Below, piece after piece: positions 12,301 to 47,900 of a stretch of DNA of 64,000 nt. Both the position numbers and the translations under genes were made by a program. Position 1 is the stretch's first letter, and each line of letters starts with the position of its first letter. Source of the stretch: Aquila chrysaetos chrysaetos (taxonomy: Eukaryota > Chordata > Aves > Accipitriformes > Accipitridae); contig NC_044006.1 in the NCBI RefSeq assembly GCF_900496995.4, positions 22,714,214-22,778,213 of the forward strand, in the 5' to 3' direction. The notes under the pieces were generated by a model, which worked only from the letters and a program-made list of their open reading frames with translations, did not search any database and was not told the DNA's origin.

Positions 12301-15300
12301 AATACATTGAAATATTGCTTGTGCTCTTAAGTTTTGGGAGATCTACTCTTCAGATATACTCTACAGAAAATCACCTTTGCTTGCCATGTATTTCTTTACA
12401 GTGTTTAAACTCCAGTGCTGTATCCTTGTTATACTATAAAGAAGATGTTTCACAAGCTTAAAGAAAAGCTTTAATGTTGTGACTCCTGTGTCTAGATACC
12501 TGCAGGATAGGATCGAGATACGTTCAGTGATGCACACATTTTTAAGAACATTCATCTAGCTGCCTTGTGCAATGTTTAATGGGAAGCGAATCTTTGGTTT
12601 TAAAAGTCAAACAGCATCTGCCACTAAGAACTTACCTCAAAATTCTAGAAAAGCTAAGAATCACATTTCTGCACTAGGGGAGGTTTAGACTGGACATTAG
12701 GAATCATTTCTTCTCTGAGACGGTAGTCTAAACACTGGAACAGGCTTCCTAGAGAGGTGGGCGATGCCCCAAGCCTGCCAGCGTTTAAGAGGCATTTGGA
12801 CAATGCTCTTAATAACATGCTTTAACTTTTGGTCAGCCCTGAAGTGGTCAGGCAGTTGGACTAGATGATCATTGTAGATCCCTTCCAACTGAAAAAAGAT
12901 TCTATTCTATTCTATTCTATTCTATTCTATTCTATTCTATTCTATTCTATTCTATCTCATTGAACTTTTCTTCCTCTATCCATTACCTATTGAGGAGGTA
13001 GAGTATTTTACTCAAATTTTGATTTCATAAAGCTTCCTATCACAGAACACTTTACCAGGAAAACAGAAACCAAAAAACCTGTTTTGTAGTAATTGGTCTG
13101 TAATAAATGCCAATATGGATTCTCATATTCTGGTATATGAACACGTTTTTCTAATTTAATTTAATTTTTTTTTAAATCCATTATTAACTACAAAGGATAA
13201 TAAAAAAAAATTAAGAAATAATGAACACTAAAGTGAGGCTACAGTTCTTGAAATGGAGAACATACATCAGTGAAGATGATGAAGAAAATGTAGTGTCTGG
13301 CCTTTATCTTTTTATATTCACTACTCATAGAATAAGAATTAGGTACTTGTAAAAGCAAATAATAAAACAAAATAACATTGATTTCCTCTCCTGTCCTATA
13401 AAATTATTGATCTGTTTTTAACCTAATTGGCACTTGGGAAAATAAATGGAAAAAACAGTAGGCTATTTATGGGATTCAAGTATTTGTTCTCAGTGAAAGA
13501 GTCCTGGCCCTGCTTGTTCAGGACTGTGTTGGCCATCCTAACAAGCTAAAGATCTGAGTGCTGTAGCATACTGTATTTACTTTGTTCTCCTTCTCTTTAA
13601 TCTCATGTATCTAATTATTTCTTGTAATTCGGAGAAGTAACAGTGCTAACGATGCCTTAATGTATTGATACACAACAATTGAGCACACACTGCTAAAAAA
13701 GTAGTTTTTCAGTAAAAGTCTTATCTAACATAAAAATGAAGAGCTTGATTAAAGGAAAGAGATAATAAAAGTGGTTTTCCAGTTAAACACACCAGAGTTT
13801 GTGTGAAGCAAAGGAACTTTATTTCTCCTATATCCTGCCTAGGAGGCCAGCCGACGTATTGATTAATACAATGTTTACGTAACACACGGACATTTTTAAT
13901 CAGTTATACTTTCCTGAACTGTAGAATTTACTATGTAGAATCCAAAGACTTTCTGTTTCCTTGGGTTTGATCCTCAGATATTTTGTTTGTGGGAAAATTT
14001 ACAGATGGCCAGGCCCCTGATTCACATGCATAAATATTTTCAGGTTTGGGGAATGAATTAAGTTTAGGTCTAAACTTCCCACGCTTTCTTTTAGACAAAG
14101 CAACACTAAAGGTATTGCACATAAATTCAGTGACAGTATTTGTATTGGCTTCAACAAGCTTTGGCTCAATCTCCAAGCTATATAGTATGGATGTTGAGCT
14201 TGGTGCTTGAAGGTACATCAGGTGAAATTTCATTGCCATCAGAGAAGTTGTCCTGAAGCCTAAAGCTCTCTGAGAATCATCAGAATCAGGATGGTTAATT
14301 ACAAATTACAAATCACAAAGGAGGAACACTGATAAAAAGGCTTACAGTTGTTTAAAAACAAGGGGGGGGGGGAATAAAACTGCATGCTTTTCCTTGGTAT
14401 TTGATATAATTTATTTCATAAATACTAAAAAAATGGTAGATTGAAATTTTTAAAAAATGAGGATACAAGTGTTTACACACTTGTAGCTCAACCTTTGTTT
14501 TTTGGGGCTATCATATAATTCATAGCAAACATCTTTGTAAAATGCTGTCCTCACAGGGCTGCTGAAGATTGCTTTCCCATGTTTGCAGCTGCAGTGCGAT
14601 AGCTCGGGTGGATGTGGATACAGATGATTCCACATCTGTTTGCCAGTACCCAAAAAGGAAGATTGTATTTTAAAACCTGTTTAAAACACTATTGCAAAAA
14701 TAGCCTTATCTAGCTCACTTGGATTTTAAAGCTGGATATTTGTGTGCTCCTTTGGGATAAGATTTGGACCATCCCTCCAGCAGAAATTGTGTTGTAGAAG
14801 AATTGCATGTGTATGTTATTTTGCATGCTGTAGCAGTGTGCATATGTGAAAAAGGGAGGGAGAAAAAGAGAAGTAGATTCCAATTTCATTACATAGTTCT
14901 TGTGTCCATTCACAGCAGTTAGCCAGGTATATCGTTTTAGCATGGCTAAAGCTGCAGCTATTAGCAAGGTGATTTTACATATTACCCCTCTGTGTTAATT
15001 TAATGCTGTTGTTTTCTCTGTCTGCTCTTGTAACAAAACAGAAGTACTCTGCTGTCTCTCTCTGCAACATATCTACAGAAGTCCTGAAAGTCATCAATGC
15101 CACTGAAGAACTGATAGCAGAATCCACCAGTCCCTGTGATCTCCCAGCTGACATTCAGGACAGAGGAAGAGGCACCTTCCCACTGGGGATGGACCCCGTC
15201 AGACTTGATGAGCAGCTCACCACGTTGGAAGAAAACGTAAGAACATGAATCAGTACATGAAAGTGTGACGTGTGAGTGAGTGTACCTATGTGTGTGTGCC

Positions 15301-18375: not shown

Positions 18376-18449
<74 letters not shown>

Positions 18450-21400
18450 CTTCCTTTTCTGTCCTATTAAACTGTCTTTATCTCAACCCACAAATTTTAC
18501 ATTTTTTTCTGACTCTGTCCCCCATCCCACTGCAGGGAGGAGTGAGCAAGCGGCTGCGTGGTGTTTAGCTGCCTGCCGAGTTAAACCACGACACTGAGTT
18601 ACAAAAACATAATGACTTTCGCTTCCCACTTTTTTCTCTCAGTCCTATTTTCTTTAGATATTTTTTTCCCCTCTTGAAAAGTACAACTTAGTGTGCAGAG
18701 AATTTTGTCACAGCATTTAAGTGCATCTTTTCTTTAACTTTCTAAAGATGTTTCTGTTCATAATGTTCCCTTTTCTTCTTTCTCTGAGCTTTTAGGCATG
18801 GTAGGGAAATTGAAAAAATCACCTTTTAATCTGAAGTGGCTGTGGTATGTCACACCACAAAGATGTATCATTTAAATGAATGGAAAGAATAATTAAAACC
18901 CACAAAAGCAGGAGCATTTGTTTAAATCAGCATGTTAACTTTATGGCCCACCTGTGTCTCCCAAGTACTTCAGCAAAGATGTTAAATCAGATCACTTATT
19001 TGTTCTAGGTTCATTTTTCAAAGATTTCATGCCTGCAGTTAGACTGTGGTCTTACAAGATGCAGTGAATTTGTTTCTTAGCAAAGTCACATACATGAAAA
19101 AAATGTATCTACAGTTATGCCTTGAAACAGCTGATAGAAAGGAGAAAAAAACTATTGCAAGTAATTAAGAAGCAATAATATAATAAAAAATAATAAAAAA
19201 TAAACACTTTCTTAAATCTTAATCTAGTCATTATCTACCACTTTTGATCCATAAAGTCACAGCACGGCCAGAAATTATTTGAATACCTGTTGTGTCAAAG
19301 GACTCCATGATCTACGAATTGTGGGCAGATACAATGACTTGAGTGGAAAACATGTATGAAGTGAAGGTATCTGCTCAAGGATCTGGTTCAGATCCTGCTT
19401 GCTTGCCCCTTGAACCATGAAGTCACCCACAGAACATGTTTAATTCATGCAAGTTTTGTAGCACCACAGTCTTTACTGCTATTCGAGTGAGTGAGGCTGC
19501 CAGTGAGAAAAATCAGAATATATATTTCATTCCCACTGTGCTGTTACCAGCCTCATGGAAACAGTCTCTTGGCTATCTAGTAAACAGGCAGAAGGTGCAG
19601 TATTTTCACATGGGTCTGCACAATTTTGAGCACAGATGTCAAAAGCTAATGCTTGAAAATTCCATCCAGCCATGTACCTTATATTTCTTTGTGAAATAAA
19701 AGAAACACATAAAATACAGTGTATCATGAATTATTGCTCCAAGGAGCTGAATGGGAAATGAAACCTTTACCTGCAGTTATCCGAGGTATCATAGGTGGGT
19801 CAAAATATTAAAAGTTGTTTGTTTTTATGGAAGATCTCTATATGATAAAGTCTGTTATTCTCTCGTATGTGGCCCAGATAAGTCTATTGACCCTCCACGG
19901 ATTCACTCCAAAGGGCCAGGAGGTGGGAAGGTTTTGGCTGCTGTATATTTGGGTGAGAGCAGGATGGGATGGAAAACCGTCTTGTACATGTAAGCACAGT
20001 TACTCTGTAAGAAGTTAATAACCATGTGCTGCTGAACAGTTATTCTTACAGAGTTTTGATTGCCAGAAGGTATTAGGTGTGTTTCAATAAACACAGCTTT
20101 ACATGAGGTGTGATCTGTTGACTTCCCAGTGTAGACTTAGGGGTTTTGTTATGCAAAAATAAGAAAGCAGACTTTTCAGCTTTTTTTTTTTTTTTTTGCT
20201 GGTGAATCTGGAACAAATCTGTTTTGAAATACCATTGTAGCACCCACGAAATTTGGAGTGCAGCCACCTCATGCCTCCCTTCTCTTTGTGGATGTGTGTT
20301 TTCAGATTATTCCCCCATGACTTTCCTCTGCCAGCTAAGTCTCCCTGTAGCGGGTTAGCAAGGAGGGAAGCTCAAAGAAGATGCAGTCTGCTCAAACCTC
20401 TGTGTCCACAAAACAGAAATCACTGATGCCTCTCCCTGCCTTGGCCCTGCAGGTGTACCTGACAGCCAGCACTGTTTATGGGCTGGAGGGGCAGCTGACC
20501 AACCTGGAAGACGCCGCGCGCAAGATCAACAGTGTCACTGCAGAATCTGAGCTGGCCGATCTGGAGGATCAGGTAGCCACAGCAGCCGCCCAGGTTCATC
20601 ACGCAGAGCTTCAGGTGAGGACAGCAGCTCCTCCCTATCTGCAGGTTTCACACTGCCTTGCCTAGCGCTTACCTGTTGTCTGCACACACGCCCTTTCGAT
20701 ATTCTTTTGTACCACAGTGAACAGATGATCCAAGGATGCTGACTGCATCGCACAAGCTGAGCAAAGCATAACTGAGATGTGTAACTCAGCCCAGCCAGAT
20801 GTACTGTATTTGTTTCTTCCCCCAGCTTGTTTTCAGACATGGGAGTGCAACAGCTTGTTAACTGCAATACTGATTCTGAACCTGCTCCTTGCTGCCAGGC
20901 AGCTCACGTGGTGTGCTCTGTCACATGCGTGGCTGTGGTCAGGCTGCAAACACAGTCTTAGACAGCTTGTCTAATCAGCAGGTTGTAAAGCGCTTCCCAA
21001 AAGAAGCCAGCGTCTGTACTGTTCTACTGAAAAAGGCCAACGGCAGCCAGCTGCTAGGCCAAGTGCAGAGCCTACCACTTGCAAGCCTGCCTTGGGATTT
21101 AGCCGCTAAGCAGCACACATCCCAGCCAAAAGGCAATTGCTCTTGCGGTCTGCGATCTAGCGTCTCTCTAGCGGGCTCCAGAAAGTCTGGGGCTCAGAAG
21201 AACACATAATGATCTGGTGCTAAAAGCTGAACGAGGTTACGCTGCCAGATCTCAAGGGTCTAACACTGCTAGCAACTCACTGCCAGTGACTTCACTGACC
21301 AGTCTGTACCAAGCGAGGCACTCTGACCTGCCTGTGCCAGGCTTTAATGGGAAATACCTGGTTATTTTCCTCAGCAGGAGCATGCTCCATTTAGGACTGA

Positions 21401-24248
21401 GCAAAGATCTGAGAGTCTGACATCTCTCTGATGTCAGAAGTGCATTGCTGCACTAGATGGTGAACTGGCAGTGACATTTTGTTGGCTTCAGTCATTATTT
21501 TATGGTAAATATGTTAACGGGGGTGGGAGGTGAGGAGGAGAGAGACCTAAGCTATGCAAGGAGGAAGACAAAGAGGCCAATGGAAGGTCTTCTGCAGAGT
21601 GAACAGCTTCAGGTGTCATCGTGATTCAGGAGTCAGGTTATATGTCTGACTTCTCTGACACTTCTTTCCCTTTTGGCAACATTTGTTTCTGCTAGTGTCA
21701 ACATCAGCCTACTTTCGCCCCCAGATGTTTGCTTTCCTGGACTTTAGTTTTTCCTAGCAATTTGTTTTCCATTGAGTGTTTTTATATAGTGTGTACCTGC
21801 ATTTATGCATGTTTGTGTATAACATACATATACACTTAAATTATAAATATTTAAGATCAAATGTTTAGATTTTGTGACGGAGGATGTACTTTGCAAGTGC
21901 ATGAAATTAATTCTGAATTAGGAAATGTGTCCCACAAAGTCATTCTTGGAATGTAGCCTTTGAAAAGCATAGCCTGAATGATCTTGGGTTTATGCAGCTA
22001 AAGGTAACTGGGAGATGGCAGACACAGGTTTTCTTTCCTCCTTTCTTTTTTTCCTCAAAAGGAGTAAAATGCCTCTTCCTTGGAGTCACAAGGTAGGTTG
22101 GATTGTTCTTTTACTCCATCTTTACTAACAAATTAAGCCCCTTTTAACATCAGGACTAAAAAATACAGAAAAGCATCAGAATTGCTGAAGAAGTTAGCCA
22201 TCTGTTTATATTTTTTGATTAAAGAGGATTTGATGGGGGGAGGGATATATTTTAGTAGTGGCATCCACAGTAATTTTAAAAACTTCTTTTTCCCCCTCCC
22301 CACCTGTCTGTCTCTCTCTTTTATTTTCTTTGAAGATTTCAGATATTGAGAGCAGAATATCAGCTCTCACTGTTGCAGGCTTGAACGTGGCTCCCTGTGT
22401 TCGCCTGACAAGGAAACGGGATCAAAAGCAAACAAACCAGGTGCCAGAACATTATGTAGTATTCAAAATACATTGGGGAAATCTTGCCTCTTTTTCTGTA
22501 ATGGAGTTGAGTAATGCATATGTGTTGTTTACAGATGCATACAATAGACACATCAAGACAGCAGAGGAGAAAACTTCCAGCTCCACCAGTAAAAGGTGAG
22601 CTTAAGTTGTTACATACATTATAGAGTCTCTCTTTATAAGGTTCAATGTAATGTACAGTTCAGCAAAGTAGGGGGAAGGTCAAGTTACAAAAGGAACAGA
22701 GAAAGCCTAATTATGTCCACCCTCCTCACTTCCCATTGTACTTGCATTACATAAAATACCCATTTGTCATGTTAAAAAGCATCACCACTTTCTCTTCAGT
22801 GGAAGTTGTGTCAGTGGTGAATTAATAGGAGCAGAAGCAGACGGCTGGGAAAAGCAAATGAGGAATGCTGAATACTGACCCTGCACCAGGGCTGCTGCTG
22901 CTCCAGCGTGCCTGGGGTTAGTTTGTGAGGCCCAAGCAGTCGCAGTGTTTAATTACTAAAAGCCAGTTGCCACCCTCCACAACCCACTGTTGCTTTGTTA
23001 AAGCCTATGTACGCTGATTTCAGTCCATATAATGTGGCTCAGCAATGTTCCTGGTATGTTAGGGTATGGCTGTGAACTGGCTTTATAAAATAAAGTGCTT
23101 TTTCTTTCATGTGTTCTCTTTTTTTTTAACTCTGCAGTGCATTAACTCTGACAATTCTAGGGCCTGCTTCACTTTGCATTACTCTTGTTTTACTCTTGTG
23201 TAATTCCACTGATTGACATGGCCTCAAACTTTAATAAATTTGGAGTATCACAGCCTGCTGTTTTTCATTTAAATTAAATCCAGCTTTCCTCATACATCTT
23301 AGGGGAAGTTTTATCTCTCTAGAAGCTGTGACTCTTCAGAAGTATTGTTACATCAGCTTCAAGCTGTTTTGTGAAAAATCTCCCTTTTTGTATTTTTCCC
23401 AGGTGAAAAAATAGATGGTTCTCCAGTTACCACTGTCAGAATGTTTAACAGAAACTTCATGCTTCAAGGATCTCTAACACAAAGAACTAAAGAGAGGAAA
23501 AGCACTGCCAAGGACTTAATGGTAAATTCATAACAAATGTTTTTAAAACTGCTATTAAAAGTAGTAAATAGAGAGACAGTGGTATCTGTGTAGGCAGCTA
23601 TATATTTCAGCATCTTCACAAAACTTCTTTTCATAGTTTAAGGAAAAAGAATAGAGACCGCTGAGGCAGCTCTGAACAAATACGACCAGTGTCCTGGAAG
23701 ATGTCTGACTGTATACTGTAGTATAGCAGCTCCTGAATGTCAGCCGGTGTGAATGTACCCTGGCTGCCAGGTCTCCAGGAATGTGCTACCTTATTTAAAA
23801 AAAAAAAAAAAAAAAAATCAATTAATGGTCCCCTGCAATTCATACTTCTGAGCCAGACCCTCACAGAACCAGCTGCACACTGTAACTCAGCAGGTGAGAG
23901 TCACCTGGAATCTCACTAATTTTTGAGAAATGTTCAAAGGTTACCTAAGTGGAATTTAAGGGGTAGATAGGCCACGCATTGGCTCTGCAGGCTTTGAACA
24001 AATAGGCTTCACTGGACAGCTGTCAATCATTTCTTCTGCGGCAGCCATACAGGAATAAGGAAAAAAGCTGACTGTCCCGAAGCAGTCTGCCACTAGATAT
24101 GTGGAAAATAAGTGGGGAGGTGAGAAAGGGAAGGACCTGACTCTATAGGAGCTTCAGCAAGCTTGTTTTGTGTTTCGCTCATGTTTTTGTTCTTTCCTGT
24201 CCCTCTCTGTTCTAGGAACCTGCTATAGGATCTGCTGTGATGTACTAA
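127..24248 (+). CDS. MYRIP: MYRIP (myosin VIIA and Rab interacting protein, Slac2-c), C-terminal seven coding exons
   Basis: Join 127-366, 15042-15236, 20453-20614, 22336-22440, 22535-22595, 23403-23521, 24216-24248. All junctions are GT/AG and the frame stays open through them, giving about 304 residues plus stop. The human protein is about 859 residues, so the N-terminal Rab27-binding zinc-finger domain and the myosin-binding part lie upstream of the window. The protein links Rab27a on secretory granules and melanosomes to myosin VIIa/Va, actin and the exocyst. The part present here covers much of the C-terminal actin-binding region. It includes an acidic Ser/Glu-rich stretch, then a heptad-like helical region (VYGLEGQLTNLEDAARKI, LADLEDQVATAAAQV, SDIESRISAL) shared with melanophilin, a basic Pro-containing segment (RRKLPAPPVK), and the terminus ending SAVMY. 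Assignment to MYRIP rather than melanophilin rests on the tail sequence and on EIF1B as the next plus-strand gene. The 5' end of the gene is missing. Confidence 0.93.
1290..2919 (+). mobile_element. CR1 LINE, 5'-truncated and heavily decayed
   Basis: Sense-strand remnant of CR1 ORF2 and 3' UTR. Recognisable pieces include the reverse-transcriptase box DFNEAFNTVSHNILTDKL (about 1,800-1,860), a frameshifted GVPQGS-type region near 1,970-2,010, the AEKD-GVLVDTKLN segment near 2,240-2,285, and [20 protein letters not shown] near 2,495-2,555. The end is a degenerate CTGTGACTCTCTGATTCT at about 2,901-2,918. Several frameshifts and deletions make it inactive. The 5' boundary is approximate. Confidence 0.88.
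11947..11990. repeat. Poly(T)-rich low-complexity tract
   Basis: An almost pure T run of about 25 bases followed by interrupted T/C sequence inside the large MYRIP intron. No element boundary was recognised. Confidence 0.8.
12675..12898 (+). mobile_element. CR1 LINE 3'-end fragment
   Basis: About 220 bp similar to the CR1 C-terminal and 3' UTR region: TTTAGACTGGACATTAGGAA, an ACTGGAACAGGCTTCC motif, and a GGACTAGATGATCATTGTAG motif just before the tail. It is shorter and more diverged than the copy near 41-42 kb. The normal octamer tail is replaced by an ATTCT array. Confidence 0.85.
12899..12955. repeat. (ATTCT)n pentanucleotide microsatellite
   Basis: About eleven near-perfect copies of ATTCT directly abutting the CR1 3' end. 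It was probably seeded by the CR1 3' terminal repeat (ATGATTCT/ATTCTATG type) and expanded by slippage. Confidence 0.95.
15042..15236 (+). CDS. MYRIP: MYRIP coding exon, 65 codons
   Basis: The acceptor is AACAAAACAG and the donor is AAC/GTAAGA, phase 0 on both sides. It encodes KYSAVSLCNISTEVLKVI and ends LDEQLTTLEEN, which continues directly into VYLTAS of the next exon. That junction is typical of the Slac2/melanophilin family. The preceding intron is 14.7 kb. Confidence 0.93.
17993..18593 (+). mobile_element. Avian ERV solo LTR (copy A)
   Basis: Starts TGTCCTCGTTTCAGCTGG and ends AAACCACGACA, flanked by TTGAG and CTGAG (4 of 5 bases match), an imperfect 5-bp target duplication. It has a TATATAAA promoter box at 18,266-18,273 and an ATTAAA poly(A) signal at 18,466-18,471. 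It is closely related over most of its length to the LTR at 37,280-37,860. No internal retroviral sequence lies next to it. A (TTA)n array is expanded in its 3' half. Confidence 0.85.
18376..18448. repeat. (TTA)n trinucleotide microsatellite
   Basis: About 73 bp of uninterrupted TTA/ATT repeat, roughly 24 units, inside the solo LTR. It creates spurious poly-Ile and poly-Tyr open frames. Copy number is likely polymorphic. Confidence 0.97.
20453..20614 (+). CDS. MYRIP: MYRIP coding exon, coiled-coil segment, 54 codons
   Basis: The acceptor is GGCCCTGCAG and the donor is CAG/GTGAGG. It encodes VYLTASTVYGLEGQL and LEDQVATAAAQVHHAELQ, a helical heptad-rich segment strongly conserved between MYRIP and melanophilin. 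It is GC-richer than the flanking introns. Confidence 0.95.
20615..22335 (+). other. MYRIP: MYRIP intron (1.7 kb)
   Basis: Unique sequence. No repeat, RNA gene or extra exon was recognised. Confidence 0.6.
22336..22440 (+). CDS. MYRIP: MYRIP coding exon, 35 codons
   Basis: The acceptor TTCTTTGAAG precedes ATT TCA GAT ATT GAG (ISDIESRISAL). The exon ends CAA ACA AAC CAG before GTGCCA, a weak donor beyond the GTG. It continues the coiled coil of the previous exon and then becomes basic (RLTRKRDQK). Only 94 bp separate it from the next exon. Confidence 0.92.
22535..22595 (+). CDS. MYRIP: MYRIP coding exon, 20 codons plus 1 nt
   Basis: The acceptor is TTGTTTACAG and the donor is AAAAG/GTGAGC. 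It encodes MHTIDTSRQQRRKLPAPPVK and leaves one base (G) that completes a Gly codon in the next exon. The exon is 61 nt, so skipping it would shift the frame. Confidence 0.9.
22596..24215 (+). other. MYRIP: Last two MYRIP introns around the exon at 23,403
   Basis: Introns at 22,596-23,402 and 23,522-24,215. The second contains a run of about 21 A bases at 23,797-23,817. Nothing else was recognised. Confidence 0.6.
23403..23521 (+). CDS. MYRIP: MYRIP coding exon, 39 codons plus 2 nt
   Basis: The acceptor is TTTTTCCCAG and the donor is ATG/GTAAAT. It encodes GEKIDGSPVTTVRMFNRNF and then LQGSLTQRTKERKSTAKDLM, matching the conserved C-terminal part of MYRIP. It restores phase 0 for the terminal exon. 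Confidence 0.92.
24216..24248 (+). CDS. MYRIP: MYRIP terminal coding exon (10 codons and stop TAA)
   Basis: The acceptor TGTTCTAG precedes a short tail encoding EPAIGSAVMY and then TAA at 24246-24248. It is in phase with the preceding exon. The exon continues as 3' UTR. Confidence 0.9.
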   Translation, partial: EPAIGSAVMY

Positions 24249-28419: not shown

Positions 28420-28827
28420 TTCTTTCTTCCAACCATTGCTTTTTATTTTTACATATTAACAGCCATTGACTTTGAAATGTGACAAGAAGGTTTCATGATA
28501 CACTTAACACTGCAGAGTTTAAATCCCAGCACAAAAGCTGTGTGGTTTTTAGATAAACCTAATGTTACAGTGAACAGCATCAAGGGACTGGTGGGGATGT
28601 AAGATGAAGAAACATTTTTGCAAGCTGTGGTGGCACTCAGTGCTAGTGTCTATGCATTGTCTTTTACCTGCACCCTGAACATGTTTCTTTTTGAAGGAAC
28701 TTGCACAAGGAGCAGAAAGAAGAGCAGCGTGGGACTGCTAAGCAACAGCAGAACTGGAGGTCTGAGGTGCAGGGGAGGGCACAATTCAAAGAACTAGAGG
28801 TTGGGTCATCACCTCGGGGAACAGGGA
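28420..28827 (-). other. PRLH2: Probable PRLH2 3' UTR with AATAAA signal
   Basis: Minus-strand sequence after the stop. The first clear AATAAA on the minus strand is at 28,447-28,442, about 380 nt past the stop, so the transcript may end near 28,420. Inference only. Confidence 0.4.
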
Positions 28828-29006
28828 TCACCAGTCATCGTCTTCTGCATCCGACACTTTTTGCTCCCACAAAGCGTTCAAGATGAAATCCAGGTGCCTG
28901 CTCACAGGCCTGAGGCTGCCACGGCTGCTTCTCAGCTGCCTCTTCCCAAACCGACCGATGGGGCGAACACCACGGCCCACGTACCAAAAAGGATCAATCT
29001 CAGGAC
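28828..29006 (-). CDS. PRLH2: PRLH2 exon 3: C-RFa hormone and C-terminal flanking peptide
   Basis: On the minus strand the acceptor GAATTCCAG (AG at 29008-29007) precedes GTCCTGAGATTGATCC. The first two bases finish the Ser codon. The 20-residue peptide runs to about 28,948, the Gly-Lys-Arg processing signal is at 28,947-28,939, and the stop TGA is at 28830-28828. Residues after the dibasic site are rich in Arg/Ser, then a LDFILNALWEQ helix-like stretch and DAEDDDW at the end. Confidence 0.95.
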
Positions 29007-30869
29007 CTGGAATTCAAAGCAGTCAGTGAAGCAAATTCCACTGTACTTAAAGGCAGCATTTCCTGAACATCTTGAGTGTGTTAGATGGCTTATTTGTAGT
29101 CCGGGAAAAAAACCAAGGGGAAAGGCTGCAGCTAGACATACAACTTTCTGGTGCCTTTTAGGGTTGCTTTCCGTGTGTAGAGCCCAAAGGAAGAGGATTC
29201 AGATGCAAAATTAATTTTCATCCGTCTGGGCTCCGACCTGCAATTCTACACAGCCTATCAAATTCAGGAGGGCCCAGCATGCTTTAAAACTGATTTGAAC
29301 CCTGGAAGAGGTGACAAGCAGCCTACATCCAGAAAGACCATCGTAGCTCCCTGTACCACCACTTTTAAACTCTTAGCTGAAGTCCTGAAGGTCCTACTGT
29401 CCAGCCTCCATTTCTGCTGTATGCACCAGGTACGCTATCTCTACAGGCTAACAAATCCACTGGGTTGCAGAGGGCGTTTCTACTTGAGAGATAAACATAA
29501 AAAGCTAATTCTTGTTCACTTAGGAGGCTGTTTTCATGGATGACTTTTTTTCTTTTAAAGCATCTGAAGTACACTTGGCTGATGTTTATAGTCTAGTCTA
29601 GTTTTAGAGCAGGTGTGGGGAGGGGTGTAATTGTATTAAAAGACTAAGATATACAACAGGGAAAATCTACAAAGTGTAGATGGAGATGATGCTACCCTGA
29701 GGAAATGCCAAATCATTCCAAAGCTGGAGCACTGTCAGGAACAGGAATAAACTTCAATTTAAGTGCATTATTTATCAGCCAAGTCATATGAAAGTCTCAG
29801 GCAAGGCAGCAGGATTATCGCCTGTGCATTTTGATGCTTGAACAGAGAAAATAAAAAATCCACTTTGGCTGTAAATTTCTCCATAAATACATGTTTTAAG
29901 TCTTTCCACACAGTGTTTAACACCTGTCCTGCCCACCAAAACCCAAGTAACTTCATTTTTTTCACCTGGGAACCTAAAAACTGAGGCTCCCAACATCTCC
30001 AGTTCTCTTTAATAGGGAAAGGTGTGCCACTGAGAGCTCATGCACCTTACTCCCCACACCCCCTCTCTCCCGCTCCACATAAAATTATCAGCCTTTGCTC
30101 CTTGGGGGAAGATGAGATTTCCCGATAAAGATTTTCTCAAAAATCTTTTGGACTGTGTGTTAGCTTTTACTTGAGATATATGGTATTGTCCCTCACCTGG
30201 CCAGCCTCAGTTCTTCATGGCATCTCTGAATGGAGACGCTTCAACCACTTGTGTTTTGACTTTCAGACAACTCATGGTTCCCGACAGAAATTAAGGTGTC
30301 TGTAAAACGAACTTAAGCTTCTGGCCCTTGCTTTCTTGTTACTCTGCAGAACTAGCTGTGAACTACCCCAGGTCTACAGAACACAGCTGAAAATTTGGTG
30401 CTTAAATATTCGATGTATACTGCCCTAAGTTTTCTCTGTCAATCTTTTGTACATTAGGGTCTTCTCTGGTATTTAACACAAACTATGCTATTTCCCTTGA
30501 CTTATTAAGGGCTGTGAGAAGGACATTCGGTTCTCTATATGCATTTAAAAGCGTAAATGGAAGTACAGGACCCCACACCACCATTTCGCCATAGAAGCAC
30601 CCACAGGGCTTTGCTGCTGAACTTTGCCTGACAGCCCGACCCTGATCCCTCAATGCACCAGAGACCGCGGGGTCATCATACAGGAGTCCATCACATTACA
30701 TCAGGTGAGATTCGTACTTACTTCTGTTGTCTATCTGATGTTTAAACGGTCTGCTCTGTCTTGAAGCAAAGCTGAGCGATACCAAGAGCACCAGCACGTA
30801 GACAATGACCAGCTTGCAGTGCTTGGGTGACCACTGGGCACGTGGTATCCATGAGATTGGATGCCACAT
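28828..30869 (-). CDS. PRLH2: PRLH2: C-RFa / prolactin-releasing peptide 2 precursor (108 aa)
   Basis: Coding join on the minus strand: 30869-30722 and 29006-28828. The A at the end of the first part plus GT from the second forms Ser50. Residues 1-19 are an unusually long N-region, 20-35 a hydrophobic signal core (LVIVYVLVLLVSLSFA), 36-49 a short basic spacer ending HQIDNR. Residues 50-69 are SPEIDPFWYVGRGVRPIGRF, then Gly70 (amide donor), Lys71-Arg72 (dibasic cleavage) and a 36-residue C-terminal flanking peptide ending in acidic residues and Trp. This 20-mer is the C-RFa/PrRP2 hormone known from fish, amphibians and birds; the RPxGRF-amide end is the family hallmark. The family signals through prolactin-releasing peptide receptors (GPR10 type) in brain and pituitary. 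The gene lies tail to tail with MYRIP and head to head with EIF1B. The peptide identity is near certain from sequence; the exon joins are inferred from splice sites and phase. Confidence 0.95.
29007..30721 (-). other. PRLH2: PRLH2 intron 2 (1.7 kb)
   Basis: Bounded by GTAAGT and CCAG on the minus strand. Open frames on either strand inside it (for example near 29,300-29,570 and 29,770-29,990) are short and unrecognised. Confidence 0.8.
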
Positions 30870-30890
30870 GATGGAGCAGTGGTGGGAAGG
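30722..30890 (-). CDS. PRLH2: PRLH2 exon 2: 21-nt leader, signal peptide and pro-spacer
   Basis: On the minus strand the acceptor TTTTCTCCTCACAG (AG at 30892-30891) is followed by a 21-nt leader without ATG. The start ATG is at 30869-30867 with A at -3. There are 49 codons plus one base before the consensus donor GTAAGT (30721-30716). The frame is also open upstream to about 30,992, so an unspliced longer start is formally possible, but the strong acceptor makes it unlikely. Without splicing at the donor, the frame stops eight codons later. Confidence 0.9.
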
Positions 30891-31447
30891 CTGTGAGGAG
30901 AAAAGTGAATGTGGGGAACACGTATGGGTTAAAGCTTTCAAGGTGAAGGAAGGTGTGAACTCTAACAGCATGTTCCTATCCATCAGAGCCATTTCATGAC
31001 TAAGTTCTGTGAAACACTAATGCTGGGGATGTCCTGGGTATTTCTGTTTGAAGGCAAAGGCTATGCAGTGAGCCATCCACCGAGGTAAGTCTGCAACTGG
31101 AGGGGTTTTCTCACCATCAGTGAAAGCACCTCTCATGGCTCCACAGGACACTCAAGTCCTGGCCCTGAGCTTGCTGCTGACTTTCTGTGTGGTCCATGGG
31201 CACTGGCCACCAAAGTGGTTTTTAGCCACTACCTCCATCATCCTTTCCTCACTTGTAAAATATGTCTAACGTTTGTATTTTACACACTCTTTTTACAACT
31301 ATATGCATTTCAGTATGAAAGGGAACGCTCCTCCTGTGTCATCACTCCCTTTCACAGCCTGCATGCAAAAGCACAACTTCCAGTTATGGTTTCCACTGGT
31401 ACATGTCCTGATGCTGTAAAGGCACCTAGATGCAAACACATGAGAAA

Positions 31448-31448
<1 letters not shown>

Positions 31449-31493
<45 letters not shown>
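31449..31493. repeat. (CA)n dinucleotide microsatellite
   Basis: About 22 uninterrupted CA units. It produces artefactual His/Thr-repeat open frames. Confidence 0.97.
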
Positions 31494-31494
<1 letters not shown>

Positions 31495-33109
31495 GCGCCC
31501 CCTCGAGAAGGGTTGTTTAGAACAGAAGGTGCTGAGTTGTGAAAATCACATCCAGGAGGTGAAGAATCCTGGGCTCATGTTGCCACTGCACCGTCTCTGG
31601 CATTTTGTACAAGCTTCCTCGCAGCAGCTCTCCCAGCTCTCATGCTAGGACAGTCTGCATTGTAATATGCAAGGTCTGCCTAGATATTTGACAGCCTGGA
31701 GCCTCTGCCTGCAGAAGTCAGCAGGAGCCCTGTTTGCTTAAGCATCACTTAAGGTAGATATACAGGTACAGAGCTATAGGAGATCCTCTCGGCTATGCCT
31801 ACACAGAGGCTTCTCCTTGTGTACAAGTGGGATTTTTCCCCTGTTGCTGCCAAAATCTTAGCCTGCTTTCGGTACAGGCAGAGCAGGAATGAAAACTTTT
31901 TGATGCAAGATGCTCCCAAGCACACTGCACAGGCAACACAACAAAAGCATGTGGAGAATCTGGTTGTGTCTTTCATTAAAATGCAAAGTCAAAGGCTCCT
32001 TAACCCCTGGTATTTCAGTGAAGGTTTGTTGGGGTTTTTTCCCCACGCTGACAGTTACTTAGCAGGCAGCTTAAAGGAAAGTGATTTTAACCCACGATTT
32101 CAACAGGACCATGAATTAACTTTTTCTAACTGGAATATCTCATGACAGGAATAAATGATCATAGCACGTAAAACCACATGGGATGAAGTCTGCGTTCAGT
32201 TTCAGCTGGTGTACGTCTCTTGTTGCTCCATGTTTAGCAAAACCTTAAGTTCAGTCAGACAGAAAGATGTTTTGAGGAATCTCTTCCATGTGCTTACAGG
32301 GCTGCTGACAGGTTTTCCAGATTACTTGCTGTCTGGTTTTGTGTCTTGTTTTTCTGGGAACTGAGTGACAGAAAGGAAGAGCTTGCCTTGAGCTCATTGT
32401 TGATGAAAGACAAAAATACAGGGAAAAGCTTTTCGCACAAGCTTTTTCCTAAGCAGTGCTGCGGCTCAGCCTCCACCAGCTGGTCCTGTGCCCGCATCAG
32501 CCATTCCGACCACCTTCTAGAGTGCCGTTATTTATTGAACTTTTTGCTTATACGCTTGACCTGGCTGGGATTTCTATGAAGAACATGGCTCCCACTGCTC
32601 CTCAGTAAGTAACATGCCACCCCTAAATAGTCAGCGTGCCTAGCAACTCCAATCCTCCCTAATTTTTTTCCTAATTTCCTCCTCCTAATTGTCCCTCCCC
32701 TGTTTGTATGGGGAGAAACTGAGGCAGAGATAATGCCACAAACTTGACCCTGCATGATGCTGAGCATTTCTAACTCCAAGATAAGCATAAAATCCTGGTT
32801 ACCCCCTCACAGTCCCTTCACATTGGCCCTTATGAATAATGGGGCTGGGAGATGGTGTGTGATCTCCTCAGGTCCAGATCTGCGTTAGCCCACAGCTCTG
32901 CAGCTTTCTTCCAAAGGGAAAAATCAAAAAAACAAGACCTCATACAGTCACTCTGTATGTGCCCTCCATTTCCAACCATTAAATGATCACCAAAAATTTT
33001 AAAACCTCACTAGTTTCAACAAAACTTGACACAATTAAAAGTTTCAGGAATAATTTTTCTCCTGGAGATCAGCAGAAGTCGATACCACTGCTGTTTGGTC
33101 AACTTTCTG

Positions 33110-33171
33110 CTTGGTCCCTAAGCAGAAAGAGGCTTTAAATCTTGGTCCCTAAGCAGAAAGAGCCTTTAAAT
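33110..33171. repeat. 31-bp tandem duplication
   Basis: Two adjacent copies beginning CTTGGTCCCTAAGCAGAAAG and differing at one base (GGCTTTAAAT versus GCCTTTAAAT). Units are 33,110-33,140 and 33,141-33,171. It is a recent local duplication in the inferred PRLH2 intron 1. Confidence 0.93.
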
Positions 33172-33839
33172 TTTGGCTGTGACAGTGGTCTGGCAATGTC
33201 CATCGACATGAGAGGGGAAAGTTAAAGCCGCTAGTAAAGTTACAGTGAAGCAGCGGTATCACAGCTTGCCATGGGTCTGCCTCACACGAGCAGTGGGAGA
33301 CCACCCTGGTTCTCACTCTGGGCACACAGGGACTCTCCACACACCAAACTCAAGCTCTGCTGCAGATCCATCAGGTCTAAATCTACCATGGATGTCCTCA
33401 GAAGACAAAGTGCTATTAACTCTTTAAACCCTAAAATAGCATCTTACTCAAGATCAATGACTGCGTATGACCCCTCCAATGCAAATGCGAACAGTTTTCA
33501 TGTTTGAAAGCAGCATTAGAAATCCCCACAAGAGATCAAATCCTGGGTGAATCCAGGCCTGGGACCGCGGCTCATTTCAGGGCTGAGCAGCACGAAAGGC
33601 GCACTGCTGTGCTGCAGGCTCCTGCATGCACTTTCCCTGCAGGGGCACAACGCTGCCTGCAGGTTCAGCCGTGTTGCCTCAGCATGGTCTCCTTCCCTGC
33701 AAAAACTGGACAAAAGTTACTGAGCACAGAGCACAGCTATGTACATTAGTGTAGAAAAGCTAAAGCCCCCAAAGAAAAAAGGAAATCCAGCAAGAAAGAG
33801 CCAGAACAAGCGCTGAAGCAGATAGAGGGAGGCACTTAC

Positions 33840-33891
33840 CTGTTTGCACCAAAGCTGCTCCTCAGGTAGCTGCTGCTCCAAGCAGAAGCAG
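33840..33891 (-). other. PRLH2: Inferred untranslated exon 1 of PRLH2
   Basis: On the minus strand a consensus donor CAAACAG/GTAAGT (donor 33839-33834) closes a short sequence lying just below a TATA box. The stretch contains no ATG, and together with the exon 2 leader gives a clean 5' UTR of about 70 nt. Intron 1 would be 2.95 kb. The link to exon 2 is inferred from strand, order and splice-site quality. Confidence 0.55.
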
Positions 33892-33912
33892 GGCAGCTGC
33901 TGGGGGCTTGTG

Positions 33913-33921
33913 CCTTTTATA
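33913..33921 (-). promoter_or_regulatory. PRLH2: TATA box (TATAAAAGG) of the inferred PRLH2 promoter
   Basis: TATAAAAGG on the minus strand, about 30 bp upstream of the predicted start site near 33,890. The upstream side (33,930-34,500) is G-rich and GC-richer than neighbouring intergenic DNA, including G-runs at about 33,939-33,957. Confidence 0.55.
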
Positions 33922-33929
33922 CTGAAGGG

Positions 33930-36180
33930 AAATGGGCTTGAAGTGGGGGTGGGGGGAGTCAAGAGGTGGGCCAGGAGGACGTCAGCAGTACTAGTGAGCA
34001 AAATTTAAATGCACAAAAGGAGGGGTAGAGAACTGTGGCTCTATTAGAAAGCCATTGATCAGGGCAGGGAGCTGGAGGAGAGGGCGGTGCCGGGAGTTTG
34101 CAGGGGGAGCCTGGCAGGACATCTGGCTGAGGCCCCCCGGCCCACCAAGAGAAGAGCGGAGGGGAGGGGACCGCTGCCATGTCCCTATGGATGGGGGACA
34201 CGGGCAGACCGGAGCAGCACTGGCTGCCACACTCTCTGCACATGAGAGCCAAGCTCTCTGTGCTGCCCAGCTGAGATGCTCTGTCTGAAGCACGTGTCTG
34301 CGGGGGGAAAACGCTCATGGCTGGGGATGAAGTGTGGGGAGAAAGAGGAGATGGACTGCAGGAAGCTCTCAGGGCCAGCAAGGTGGAGCAGTCAGTCCAC
34401 ACGCCCCTTCCCAGCCCTTATTCCTCTTGCTGTTGTCCCACCTCTGCTTTTTGCTTGGGATCTTACTTGACGGCAGCTCTTGTCCCATTAAGCCCCTAAC
34501 CCACAGCTGGGATCAACTCACCCACACGTAGGTTTTAGGCCATACTCCAACACAGCACACAAGTAGCTGATGAAATCACTTGTGATTCAGTGCTTAAGCA
34601 GGTGCTTACTGGTTTTGTGGCAGAGAAAATTTCATCTGCATGAGGCTAATATCTCGAGCAATATTGTATTTCTACAATAGGCATCTCTTCTGTGTGGTTA
34701 TTTTTAACTCTGTCTCTTGACTAATGTGTTGTTGCAGTCTTGCTGTTACAGATCTCGCTGCTTTAATAGCTAAGACGGTGTTTACTGTCAAGGTTTGCAG
34801 AGGAGCAGCAGTTGAACTGGCAGGTGTTTCACTCCTTCAGCACCATCCTGCGGCGAGGCTGACATGTGAAGCGTTACTGGGCTGCCTGGGGACCGCAGGC
34901 TCTCTTGCAGAGATCTTTGCAGATGCAGGGTTGTGCTCCGCTCCTGGTGAGACTGACTACCCGAAGAAACAATTTTTAAACCTGTGCTTAGAAGAGGGAG
35001 CTCTGAGGCACGACCTGGTCTCTAAGCTGAGACTGGATAGGACATGCTGCAGTCCCATTAGGATGAAGTGGAAGTTCAATAGCAAATCCGATGTTTAGTT
35101 TTTCTATAAAGATGCTTCCAGCCGGGAAAACCTCAAAGTACAAATGACCCTATTTCACTGCAGCCACATCCCAAAAGAAATGAGATGGGTTTTTTCCTAG
35201 GGGCAATTTGTGGGGTACTTCTACAAGGAAGCATAACTGAAATTTTGCCTGGCCTTGCCCTTACTCAGTATCCAGGCATCAGGTAGATGATGTCACCACC
35301 ACTGGGGGGCTATGATCACTAATTGTGGGCATTAAAATAAATTTCTCATTTACATGTAATAGTTTGCTCTATGGTCATGTGTATGAACACAAATGCTAAA
35401 GAAGCCTGAGAAATACTCTGCCATTCTCCATTTTCCACCTAGTAATAGCTAAAAGAAGTGTCTTCCTCATCCAAGTTTTGAAGAGTTTACTCAGACTACT
35501 CAGGATTATAACTGCAAAATATGAAGAGCACTTCAAGTCCACGATAGCACAAAAGGTCCTTCCACAGCTAACACAATCAATAATGTATATACACGCTTTC
35601 TCCAGCAACCTCCTTTTAGCATGTTCCCTTTGAACCTTGCAAATGCTCCCTACCTAAAAATCAGTCTGCATCCAAGCACCAGGCAGTGGCTATGCTTCTG
35701 CTGTGCTAATTTTGTGTACAGGCGTGGAGAGGGTATCTTCTTAATAAGTAAAACCCTTCATGGTTTTGCATCGTAGATCTTTCCCCTTACTGCTCTTCAC
35801 ATTGACTTTGACCAGAAAATGTGGGTATCCTTTCTTGATCTCTAGTGGGCAGTTGCTGGAGTGAGGGCTTTTTCTCTCCAGGATATGTAGGACCCTGTCT
35901 TGTTTTGCTGTTTTGCTAAGGATCCTATCATTTTAAAACAGAAATAAAAGCCTTTTTCATCCCATTTACTCCTTCTAGTCTTGCTGTCACTGCAATACGA
36001 GCCCTTCAATAGCATTTTCACTGATTGACACCTACATGGAAGTTGCCATGTAAAATAAAACTGTGCAATGTCTTCATGTTAACATGGTTTGCTCGTTGGT
36101 AAATGCTGCCTGCCAAATAGTATACCATACAAAGAAAAATCATTATTAGGAGTGCCAGCATTTAAAATGCTCTATTATGA
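33930..36180. other. Intergenic DNA upstream of PRLH2
   Basis: A purine-rich, moderately GC-rich stretch (33,930-34,500) grades into unique AT-rich DNA. Open frames here, including one of 124 codons at 34,724-35,098 on the plus strand, resemble nothing I know. No repeat was recognised. Confidence 0.5.
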
Positions 36181-40800: not shown

Positions 40801-41220
40801 AGGCACTGGCACAGACTATATTTCTGTCAGACCTAAGTGACGGACGTGACATGGAGACGTGCAGCTCCCTCTGAGAAGGACAGCAGACGGAGAGCTCTTT
40901 GCATTGACACAGCCCCACAGCAACCCCATGCCAACGCACGTGGCCATTGCGGCCTGCTGCCAAGAGAACAATAAGCATGCTGGCCATTGCCTTTGTTTTA
41001 ATTGCTGCCCAGTACATGCCAAACTGTGCAATTAGGGTTTGTTTCCATGCCCTCCGCAGTTGTCAAGGTTTGCACTTAAGAACTGTTCATTGTGGTTTCG
41101 TTTTAAGGACAACAAAGTCACATATTTGTGGCTTATAAAGGAGCTTTGTTGTTTCCCAGACAACAAATCTCATTTGTCTGAAAACTGTACAATGCATCCC
41201 ACAGATGCCCAATGAGCCCA
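37866..41220. other. Intergenic DNA between the solo LTR and the CR1 fragment
   Basis: Mostly unique sequence. A small cluster of SOX-like cores (AACAAAG 41,111-41,117, CTTTGTT 41,144-41,150, ACAACAAAT 41,160-41,168) and a TATAAAG at about 41,134-41,140 lie just before the CR1. Overlapping open frames at 40,560-41,030 on both strands are unrecognised. Confidence 0.5.
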
Positions 41221-41227
41221 CAGGCCC

Positions 41228-42357
41228 AGGTTAACCCTGCGGCGGGAACTAGAATACTCCTTGAGAAGCTGGCGTCTCATGGCTTAGACAAGTGTACTCT
41301 TCGCTGGGTGAAAAACTGGCTGGATGGACAAGCCCAGAGGGTTGTGGTGAATGGGGTGAAATCCAGTTGGCAGTGGTCACAAGTGGTGTTCCCCAGGGCT
41401 CGGTGTTGGGGCCGGTTCTGTTTAATATCTTTATTATTGATCTGGATGAGGGGATTGAGCGAACCCTCAGCAAGTCTGCAGATGACACCAAGTTGGGAGG
41501 CAGGGTCGATCTGCTCAAGGGTAGGAAGGGTCTACAGAGAGATCTGGACAGGCTGGATCGATGGGCCGAGGCCACTCGTATGAAGTTCAACAAGGCCAAG
41601 TGCTGGGTCCTGCACTTCAGTCACAGCAACCCCATGCAGTGCTACAGGCTTGGGGAAGAGTGGCTGGAAAGCTGCCCAGCAGAAAAGGACCTGGGGGTGC
41701 TGGTTGACAGCCGGCTGAACATGAGCCAACAGTGTGACCAGGTGGCCAAGAAGGCCAACAGCATCCTGGCCTGTATCAGAAATAGTGTGGCCAGCAGGAG
41801 CAGGGAGGTGGTTGTTCCCCTGTACTCGGCACTGCTGAGGCCGCACCTCGAGTACTGTGTTCAGTTTTGGGCCCCTCACTACAGGAAAGACATTGGGTTG
41901 CTGGAACATGTCCAGAGAAGGGCCAACGAAGATGGTGAAAGGCCTGGAGCACAAGTCTTATGAGGAGCGGCTGAGGGAGCTGGGGTTTTTTAGTCTGGAG
42001 AAAAGGAGGCTGAGGGAAGACCTTATGGCTCTCTACAACTACCTGAAGGGGGATTGTAGTGAGGTGGGTGCTGGTCTCATCTGTCAGGTGGCTGGAGATA
42101 GGACGACAGGAAATGGCCTCAACTTGTGGCGAGGGAGATTTAGGTTAGATATTAGGAAAAATTTCTTTACTGAGAGGGTTGTCAGACATTGGAATAGGCT
42201 GCCCAGGGAAGTGGTTGACTCACCATCCCTGGAGATATTCAAAAAGCACGTAGACAAGGTACTTCAGAACATGGTTTAGGGGGCATGGTTGGTGGTTGGA
42301 CTCGATGATCTTGAAGGTCTTTTCCAACCTAAATGATTCTATGATTCTATGATTCTA
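41228..42357 (+). mobile_element. CR1 LINE, 5'-truncated, relatively young copy
   Basis: The 3' 1.1 kb of CR1, sense strand. It reads [19 protein letters not shown], then after a frameshift near 41,370 [16 protein letters not shown] and ADDTKLGG (the catalytic-box region, with Ser in place of the usual Phe before ADD). After a second frameshift near 41,930 it reads [19 protein letters not shown] and the [20 protein letters not shown] tail. It ends with the diagnostic GGACTCGATGATCTTGAAGG and three copies of ATGATTCT. The copy is dead: 5'-truncated and frameshifted. Confidence 0.96.
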
Positions 42358-43869: not shown

Positions 43870-44990
43870 GGGATCACCCCTCCGGGGCCTGCACCGTCCC
43901 TGCGTGGAAAACGAAGGGCTCCAGCGACCCGCCAGCGCTGCTTTCAGGGCCCCTCCCGTGGGGAATCGGGCTCCTGGGCAGGTGATTTCCCGTTGCCCCC
44001 TCGGGGAAGGCAGCGATGGATGTGCGAAGGGTCAGCCCGACCCTGAAGCGAGGCCGGCGCCCCGCCACCTCCTCCCCCGACCGCCGCGGTGCGCCCTGGG
44101 CGCTGTAGTCCTTGGGCCCGGAGCGACCCTCCGCGCTCTATGGCGGCGGGGGGGACGGGGGGAGAGGGACTCTCCTTCCCGTGGGGCAGCACGGGGGCGG
44201 GGGCGGCCATCACGTGCCTCGCGCGGCCCGGGCGAGGCGCCATTTTATGAGGAAAAACGGCGGCCGCTGCCCGTTAGCGGTAGCGTGGGGCGGTGTGCCG
44301 TGGCTGAGGGGCGGGGGGCTCCCACCCCTTTTTATTTCCCTTGGCGCTTTCTCCTCCTTTTAATCCTTTCTCTCCCCCTTCCCTCCCTCTCAGATTCGCC
44401 TCCCTCCCTCTGCTTTTGTTATCCCTCCCCTCGCTTCCTCCCCTCCCTCCCCTCCCCGCCCCCGCCGGCACTGCGGAGCCGGAGACGTGACCCGGGCGGA
44501 CCCAGCCGCGGCCTTTTCCCCGCTGCTCCAGCCTCTCGCCGCAGAGTCGCATGTCATCTATCCAGAACCTCCAATCCTTCGGTAAGAGCCGCCGCCTGCC
44601 GGCACTCCTCACCCCCTCCGGCCGCAGGGAGCCCCACAGTGACCCCCCCGCCCCGGCAAGCCCACCCCGGGGCGGGGGGACAACTGCGGCCGTCCCCGCC
44701 GTCCCGTCCTCGGCCCGCTGTCCGTCCTGTCCCCCCCGTCCCCCGGCATCGTCCTGCCGCCGCTTTCCTGAGGGCTCCGGTGAGATGTATGTGCGCCGCT
44801 GTCGTCGTCCCCCCCACCCCGCCGCCCAGGTGGGGTGACATGTCTCAGGTGACATTGAAGCCGTTGCTGAGCCGCTCCCGTCCCCGGCGCTACGCAGCTG
44901 ACTCTGTAAAGGAAGCTCTGGCTGCTCGTCCTTGTCCTGCCGCGGTGCCGGCCGCGGGACACGCAGTGTGTGTGTGCAGCCGACAGGCAT
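43870..44990 (+). promoter_or_regulatory. EIF1B: CpG-island promoter of EIF1B
   Basis: Very GC- and CpG-rich block surrounding EIF1B exon 1, with no TATA box near the likely start. Visible motifs include CACGTG (44,211-44,216, USF/MYC E-box), ATGGCGGCGG (about 44,140) and GGCGCCATTTT (about 44,236-44,246), both YY1-like, and a GACTACAGCGCCCAGGG motif on the minus strand near 44,095-44,111 resembling a ZNF143 site. The transcription start is probably within about 44,250-44,500. Such islands often fire in both directions. Confidence 0.85.
44551..44581 (+). CDS. EIF1B: EIF1B coding exon 1 (10 codons plus 1 nt)
   Basis: ATG TCA TCT ATC CAG and onward to TTC G before GTAAGA. It encodes MSSIQNLQSF; human EIF1B has Thr at residue 3 where this has Ser. 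The leftover G joins AC of exon 2 to give Asp11. Confidence 0.95.
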
Positions 44991-47900
44991 GCGGTAGGAG
45001 GCTCGTCTCCCTCTCCGTTTGCTCCCTTGCCGCTCCCGCAGGAGATGCTCTGTGTGCCTGGATGTCTGGTAGCACCCCAGACTGGGCTTTTCTGTCAACT
45101 CTGCCGTCCCAAAGTTGTAATCTTTGTGGGCAGAGGGAGTCCAGGGTTCATATCCTCTGCTAAGGAAGGAAAGCATTTCCTCAGTTCCAATTGCTTGTTG
45201 ATTTGCTGCCTCATCTTATCCTTACCAACGTCCCAAAACCTGATACATGCCCTGCAAAAGGTTTTGTTCCTATAGATCGAGCTATACAGATGGTAGGTCA
45301 TTCCTTTTCTATTAGCAGGGAAGTTTGACATGCTGGGCCATGGTTCTCCACCTTCCTTATCTATAGACAACAGAAGTGAGCAAGTTAACACTTTATACAG
45401 TAATGTTGCCAGGCTTTTGGTCTCAGTTTTGTCTCTAATCTTCTGCACGTACAAGCCATGTGAGAAGGTTATGTTAATCACGATTTGGGAGCTGACCCCG
45501 TGCTTTGGAAGGTGCTGCCCAAAAGATTTGTTTGAAGTGATCCAATGTTAATACCTTACAGTGCTGGCTTATCTCCAACTTAGAATCCTAAACTCTGCCA
45601 AGTGATCTTTGTGACAGAGTCCTCTTTTTCTTTCACCTTTTCTTTGACTGAAATTTTCTATTACTGTTTGCCCCACAAGCTGTGGGGCACAGTGAAATTC
45701 AGCATGTTTTAACAAATGCCTTAGTAGAAATCAAGCCAGTCAAGCTTCTCTTGTGCTGTACTTCTTTCCTGTGGTGCTTGCATCCTTATGCTGCTTTCAG
45801 TGCCTTTAATGCTCTTGTCATTCTTGTTTCTACAAGGGTCAGCCTGTCTGCAGCTGAGCTACTTCTTTTCCTATTTCTGCTGAAGTTTTACTCTTGGGGC
45901 ATTTGTTTCGAGTGGATGGCAAAACTTCATCAGTGTTTTTAGGTTTGAGTTTTGGATGGAAGTTTGGGAAATTGTAGCTTTCATGGCTGTTGAACCTACG
46001 CTTTCTGAAGATGGGACTCTTCAATGTGATTCTGATTAGTATCAAAAAATTACTTGTGATTAATCTTAAAAATTACTTAAAGTACTTCATGCTTCAAGAT
46101 TTATTTGGAGCTACTGATTAGGAAACTTGTACAGCTATAAAATTTCTTGATAGAGTGAGCGTTAAATATGTTTTTGTGGAGAACAGAGTAAGAAGTATAA
46201 CCTGGAAACCCAGCGTATTGTGTTTGCGTGGCAAGGTTTTGGTAGCGGGCTGCTACAGGGGTGACTTCTGTGAGAAGCTGCTAGAAGCTTCCCCTACATC
46301 TGACAGAGCCAGGGTCAGCCAGCGCCAAGGCCAACCCCATCAGTGACAGTGGTAGTGCCTCTGGTATAATGTATTTAAGAAGGGAAAAAACTTGCTGCAG
46401 AACAGAAGCTGCAGCTGGAGAGAGGAGTGAGAACATGTGAGAGAAACAACCCTGCAGACACCAAGGTCAGTGAAGGAGTGGAGGAGGTGCTCCAGGTACC
46501 GGAGCAGAGATTCCCCTGCAGCCCGTGGGGAAGACCATGGTGAGGCAGGCTGTCCCCCTGCAGCCCAGGGAGGTCCACGGTGGAGCAGATATCCACCTGC
46601 AGCCCGTGGAGGACCCCACGCTGGAGCAGGTGTGTGCCCGAAGGAGGCTGTGACCCCATGGGAAGCCTCCGCTGGAGCAGGCTCCTGGCAGGACCTGTGG
46701 CCCCATGGAGAGAGGAGCCCACGGAGCAGGTTTTCTGGCAGAACTTGTGACCCCATGGGGGACCCACACTGGAGCAGTGCGCTCCTGAAGGACTGCATGG
46801 CGTGGAAGGGACCCACGCTAGAGCAGTTTGTGAAGAACTGCAGCCCGTGGGGAATACCCATGTTGGAGAAGTTCATGAAGAACTGCAGCCTGTGGGAGGG
46901 ACCCCAAGCTGGAGCAGGGGAAGAGTGAGGAGTCCTCCCCCTGAGGAGGAAGGAGCGGCAGAGACAACATGTGATGAACTGACTGCAACCCCCATTCCCC
47001 ATCCCCCTGTGTCACTGCGGGGAGGAGGTAGAGAATTTGGGAGTGAAGTTCTGTTTGGGAAGAAGGAAGGGGTAGGTGGAAGGTGTGTTAAGATTTGGTT
47101 TTTATTTCTCATTACCCTACTCTGGTCAATTGGTAATAAATTGATTTTCCCCAAGTTGAGTCTGTTTTGTCTGTGATAGTAATTAGTGAGTGATCTCTCC
47201 CTGTCCTTATCTTGACTCCTGAGCCTTTCATTACATTTTTCTCTCCCCTGTCCAGTTGAAGAGGGGGGAGTGATAGAGCGGCTTTGGTGGGCACCTGGCA
47301 TCCAGCCAGGGTCAACCCATCACACCCTTCTTCCTAAATGCCTTCTGGTTTCACCTGTGCTAGATGAATTTAAACTTGGAAGAATTTGAGAACTGACCTT
47401 TCTATAGTCAATGCCTAAAATGTTGTTACAATTCTTGCCTAAAACTACTGACTGGCAGAGGGGTGCTAGATTACAGACAGCCTCTGACATCTGTTAGTGT
47501 CTGTTGCCATTTTTTGTTTACATTAGTGCCAAGAATTACATCCATGCCTTAAAATGCTGTTAGCATGGTAGTTGTCATGGTATAAGACTTCTGTTCTGGA
47601 CCAGTAAAGGAGTGTGGGTATAAGAGCTTTTTTATTTGTCTGTACTTGTCAGCTGATCTGACAAAAGATAAGACTTCCATATTTCACTTAAAATGCCTGT
47701 GGCTGTCTAAGACTATGTGCACTTGATGTTCTCTCAGAACCATGTTTTCAGGTTCAAAGCTTCATGATTTACAGTTTGCAAGAAATAGTGAAGTAAATTG
47801 ATACTGTAGCTGAAAGTTGTTTATATCTGGGAAGGCATTGAAGAAACTGGAAGCGTGATAGTTGAGAGCACTATGCTGAGTTAGTAGGCTGGTGGGACTT

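Follow-up and report, generated by a model that had tools for sequence, protein, structure and literature searches.

The closest described relative of the gene analyzed here is chicken C-RFa, also named PrRP2. Chicken preproPrRP2 is reported to be 108 amino acids long and its gene was placed on chromosome 3, with MYRIP on the same chromosome or scaffold (PMC4226156). According to that 2014 review both PrRP2-31 and PrRP2-20 occur in chicken brain, and feeding of chicks is stimulated by the 31-mer but not by the 20-mer. Mammals are reported there to lack PrRP2, an absence wider than the placental mammals. Identity to the grass carp C-RFa 20-mer, which its authors name PrRP1, is given as 100% for zebrafish, salmon, alligator, and chicken; for the frog peptide it is 95% and for that of sturgeon 85% (PMC8595397). 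The other hormone of the family is PrRP (PRLH), for which the published neighborhood comprises MLPH, COL6A3, RAB17, and LRRFIP1 (PMC4226156). A cryo-EM report describes residues W8, Y9, R12, R15, P16, R19, and F20 of human PrRP20, together with its amide, as receptor-contacting or helix-stabilizing (PMC11369081). Extra PRLHR receptor sets are listed for sauropsids, one of them also for marsupials (PMC6504862), and an association study in chicken that concerns PRLHR (PMC6693279) has no bearing on the C-RFa/PrRP2 gene.

The window, by which we mean the whole 64,000-nucleotide stretch of Aquila chrysaetos chrysaetos DNA that was analyzed, carries on its minus strand what appears to be an intact neuropeptide gene orthologous to C-RFa (probability about 0.97). 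What was seen in the sequence is the coding exons, their frame, the family match, the neighbors, and a paralogue elsewhere in the genome. Another bird genome thus carries, in apparently intact form, a hormone gene known from chicken and reported to be absent from mammals. As chicken preproPrRP2 and its 20-mer are already in print (PMC4226156 and PMC8595397), the gene is the orthologue of one described in chicken, frog, and fish. The suggestion in the initial annotation that a hidden gene had been newly uncovered therefore does not stand, since the 108-residue chicken precursor, its peptides, and the MYRIP linkage have been reported (PMC4226156). What is added here is a gene model that includes a likely 5' exon; the view of the family is unchanged. 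Because the coding sequence is divided among short exons, the model should be useful to annotators.

Exon 2 (30722..30890, minus strand) contains the ATG at 30869, a hydrophobic signal-like stretch, and the N-terminal part of the 31-mer. The coding part of exon 3 (28828..29006, minus strand) contains the 20-mer SPEIDPFWYVGRGVRPIGRF, the Gly amide donor, Lys-Arg, and a C-terminal tail that ends at a TGA stop codon (28830-28828, minus strand). When the coding parts 30869-30722 and 29006-28828 were joined, they gave, in phase and with no internal stop in either exon, a 108-residue precursor containing SPEIDPFWYVGRGVRPIGRF-G-KR. The intervening phase 1 intron begins at 30721, has GT-AG ends, and falls between the first and second bases of the codon that opens the 20-mer. 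The first ATG past the exon 2 acceptor AG (which ends at 30891) is that at 30869 on the minus strand. Among the 15 junction offsets tried (five donor by three acceptor positions), GT and AG ends were found at one only, 30722/29006, which gives the 108-residue protein. Four further, non-canonical offsets leave the hormone in frame, two giving 108 residues (one of these being the same protein), one 107, and one 109. Splice sites were ranked by a crude score. The exon 2 donor was fifth of the 349 GTs in the window and the exon 2 acceptor was joint first of 452 AGs. The hormone-exon acceptor is weak (rank 32 of 452), and this was counted against the gene model. The two minus-strand exons, in-phase junction, intact frame, and processing site that had been claimed for this locus are thereby confirmed.

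At the 5' side a TATA box, TATAAAAGG, lies at 33913..33921 (minus strand) and is the sole copy in the window on either strand. Downstream of it is a CAG/GTAAGT donor (33842-33834, minus strand), which is the best of the 349 by the same crude score, and its nonamer, CAGGTAAGT, is the only one in the window. The TATA box and this perfect donor suggest an extra 5' exon, non-coding and some 50 bases long (33840..33890, minus strand; the start at about 33890 is placed from the TATA box), followed by an intron of about 2.9 kb. Hence, the two-exon gene first proposed is right as to its two coding exons, whereas a third exon, without coding sequence, is probably present in the transcript. At the 3' side, AATAAA at 28442..28447 (minus strand) fits the 3' end as a possible polyadenylation signal, but is weak evidence because the hexamer is common in the window. 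With that reservation, the outer limits originally given to the gene, 28420..33921, agree with the TATA box and the hexamer. Upstream of the TATA box is TGACGTC (33978..33984, minus strand), which we take to be a CRE-like site. As the window has three copies of this heptamer, both strands counted, it was given little weight and may be due to chance. The TATA box, 5' exon, and AATAAA are putative gene ends. Note that a (CA)22 microsatellite (31449-31493) lies within putative intron 1.

The precursor matches the Pfam family Prolactin_RP (PF15172) with an E value of 8.5e-21 and 73.8 bits (cut-off 27), and two other Pfam families listed for it each fell below their own cut-offs. Precursor residues 39-69 align with 31 residues of human PrRP31 (PDB 9k26, E = 1.2e-7). 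The match to human PrRP20 (PDB 8zps) has an E value of 7.3e-5, and a third PDB match, with E = 2, is unrelated. On the basis of the Pfam score, chance was rejected for the whole precursor; the short RFG-basic motif by itself gave no ground for rejecting it. The motif R[FY]G[KR][KR] occurs once in the window versus a mean of 0.8 and a maximum of 2 in 30 shuffles and, being at chance level, is alone no evidence. A strong hydrophobic stretch is found within residues 17-36. It begins about 19 residues into the precursor, and this was weighed against the gene reading.

The 20-mer is identical to that reported for grass carp C-RFa (PMC8595397), and its Arg-Phe end is followed by the Gly amide donor and the dibasic site. 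All seven of the human PrRP20 residues named above, with the amide of F20, are kept, and V17, given as a backbone contact in the human peptide (PMC11369081), is I. The human PrRP31 and PrRP20 peptides (PDB 9k26 and 8zps) share with this precursor the RF-amide end, the Arg preceding the 20-mer, and the 31-residue form, whereas the human 20-mer is identical at only 12 of 20 positions. The likeness to chicken, where precursors are compared by published description, extends to the 108-residue precursor, the 31- and 20-residue RF-amide peptides, and MYRIP linkage (PMC4226156), together with a 20-mer reported as identical (PMC8595397). In the papers searched by text, the 20-mer itself occurs in one (PMC8595397) and the longer letters QIDNRSPEIDPFW in none. 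It is very unlikely that the tail beyond Lys-Arg (QLRSSRGSLRPVSRHLDFILNALWEQKVSDAEDDDW) is a putative second functional peptide, so far unnoticed, or a precursor sorting signal.

The gene sits antisense between the exons of two plus-strand genes, the location given for it in the initial annotation. To the left, four frames (127-402, 14973-15245, 20351-20662, and 22234..22596) match the Rab_eff_C profile at positions 415-493, 492-559, 552-613, and 611-648 (E 1e-18 for the last), the profile ranges thus running consecutively across the frames. Rab_eff_C is the family of MyRIP and melanophilin. A likely last exon of the same gene was seen by eye within 23375-23530. To the right, a first coding exon reading MSSIQNLQSF was recognized by eye at 44551..44581, and the frame enclosing it gave no Pfam match. 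Exons at 48001-48240 and 48933-49049 have SUI1 matches, and the last exon is near 49625 by eye. Partly from their position, we take these neighbors to be MYRIP, not MLPH, and EIF1B, not EIF1. When plus-strand frames of at least 60 residues in the flanking DNA were inspected by eye, one MYRIP-like exon was seen (L019) and no ENTPD3-like gene was recognized. Searches of the window with Rfam (gathering thresholds) and ARAGORN gave no matches.

A search of the genome (1,233,704,830 bases in 144 contigs) for Prolactin_RP, in which 17 candidates were scored and the counts are lower bounds, gave at least two places, the C-RFa/PrRP2 locus and C6:12982027-12982125. Joined to its signal exon the C6 copy (L001:1118-1600, C6 at about 12.982 Mb) reads NPDIDPSWYTGRGIRPVGRF-G-RR. 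Of four donors the second was taken, which leaves MEIR adjoining the 20-mer, as human PrRP has it. The acceptor was placed by eye, and the chosen donor gives a precursor of 92 residues. As all four donors are phase 1, the donor choice does not affect the phase shared with C-RFa/PrRP2: in both genes the intron interrupts the opening codon of the 20-mer between its first and second bases. Two of the donors are GTAAGG sites 15 bases apart and could yield two precursor lengths. Of the peptides from the four MYRIP frames, three matched MLPH-like exons at C6:12971530-12974316 (2.2e-6, 1.2e-7, and 3.5e-6), and the fourth gave nothing better than E = 0.99. COL6A3-like frames were seen by eye at about 12.900-12.916 Mb. 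The neighborhood comparison covers MLPH and COL6A3 of the four published PrRP neighbors. The C6 copy resembles C-RFa/PrRP2 in its split codon, in the Gly plus two basic residues, and in 14 of 20 hormone residues, but differs in its MLPH-like and COL6A3-like (not MYRIP and EIF1B) neighbors, its 92-residue precursor, and its Arg-Arg dibasic site. Given the C6 copy, the MLPH-like exons, and the MYRIP exons, in this genome a PrRP-like gene lies close to MLPH, and C-RFa lies close to MYRIP, an arrangement that fits the origin of the two genes from one ancestral gene as set out in the review (PMC4226156).

These data bear on whether the gene in the window could instead be PRLH, the orthologue of the mammalian hormone. 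The Pfam family is common to both and 12 of the 20 hormone residues are identical to human PrRP20. However, the C6 copy is closer to the human peptide (15/20) and is the one adjoined by MLPH-like and COL6A3-like exons, which are published PrRP neighbors (PMC4226156). The window gene has MYRIP and EIF1B as its neighbors and, with a second Prolactin_RP copy on C6, the PRLH identity was rejected as extremely unlikely. The name C-RFa/PrRP2 given at the outset is supported by the 20-mer, RF-G-KR, the Prolactin_RP match, the MYRIP linkage, and the separate PrRP paralogue. A gene recently silenced, with its frame still open by chance, also seems extremely improbable. The gene model is known from DNA and would to that extent allow it, but neither coding exon has a stop, the intron has GT-AG ends, the TATA box and AATAAA are in place, and the 20-mer is identical to that reported for fish (PMC8595397).

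If the C-RFa gene is active as modeled, transcription would run leftward from the TATA promoter, two introns would be removed, and the precursor would enter the secretory pathway. By analogy with chicken, cutting at Gly-Lys-Arg and amidation would give the 31-mer SRPFKHQIDNRSPEIDPFWYVGRGVRPIGRF-NH2, and a further cut at a single Arg would give the 20-mer. The amidated Arg-Phe end may then activate PrRP-type G-protein-coupled receptors. Processing, receptor, and effect in this scheme are taken from the chicken work and the human receptor.

The remainder of the window contains several repeats. A reverse transcriptase remnant at 41182-42357 (RVT_1, E 8.9e-10, in 41265-41960), presumably CR1-like, is followed by an 8-base tail repeat, (ATGATTCT)3, and pieces resembling it were seen by eye at about 1296-2799. 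Like the C-RFa gene, this remnant is what would be expected of a sauropsid, such as a bird. A tandemly repeated ORF-like stretch at 46340-47170 is an interspersed repeat, with a look-alike seen by eye at about 3600-4400 of flank L025, about 24 kb beyond the window. The microsatellites (TAT)24 at 18376-18448 and (ATTCT)11 at 12899-12955 are possible markers, as is the (CA)22 repeat noted above.
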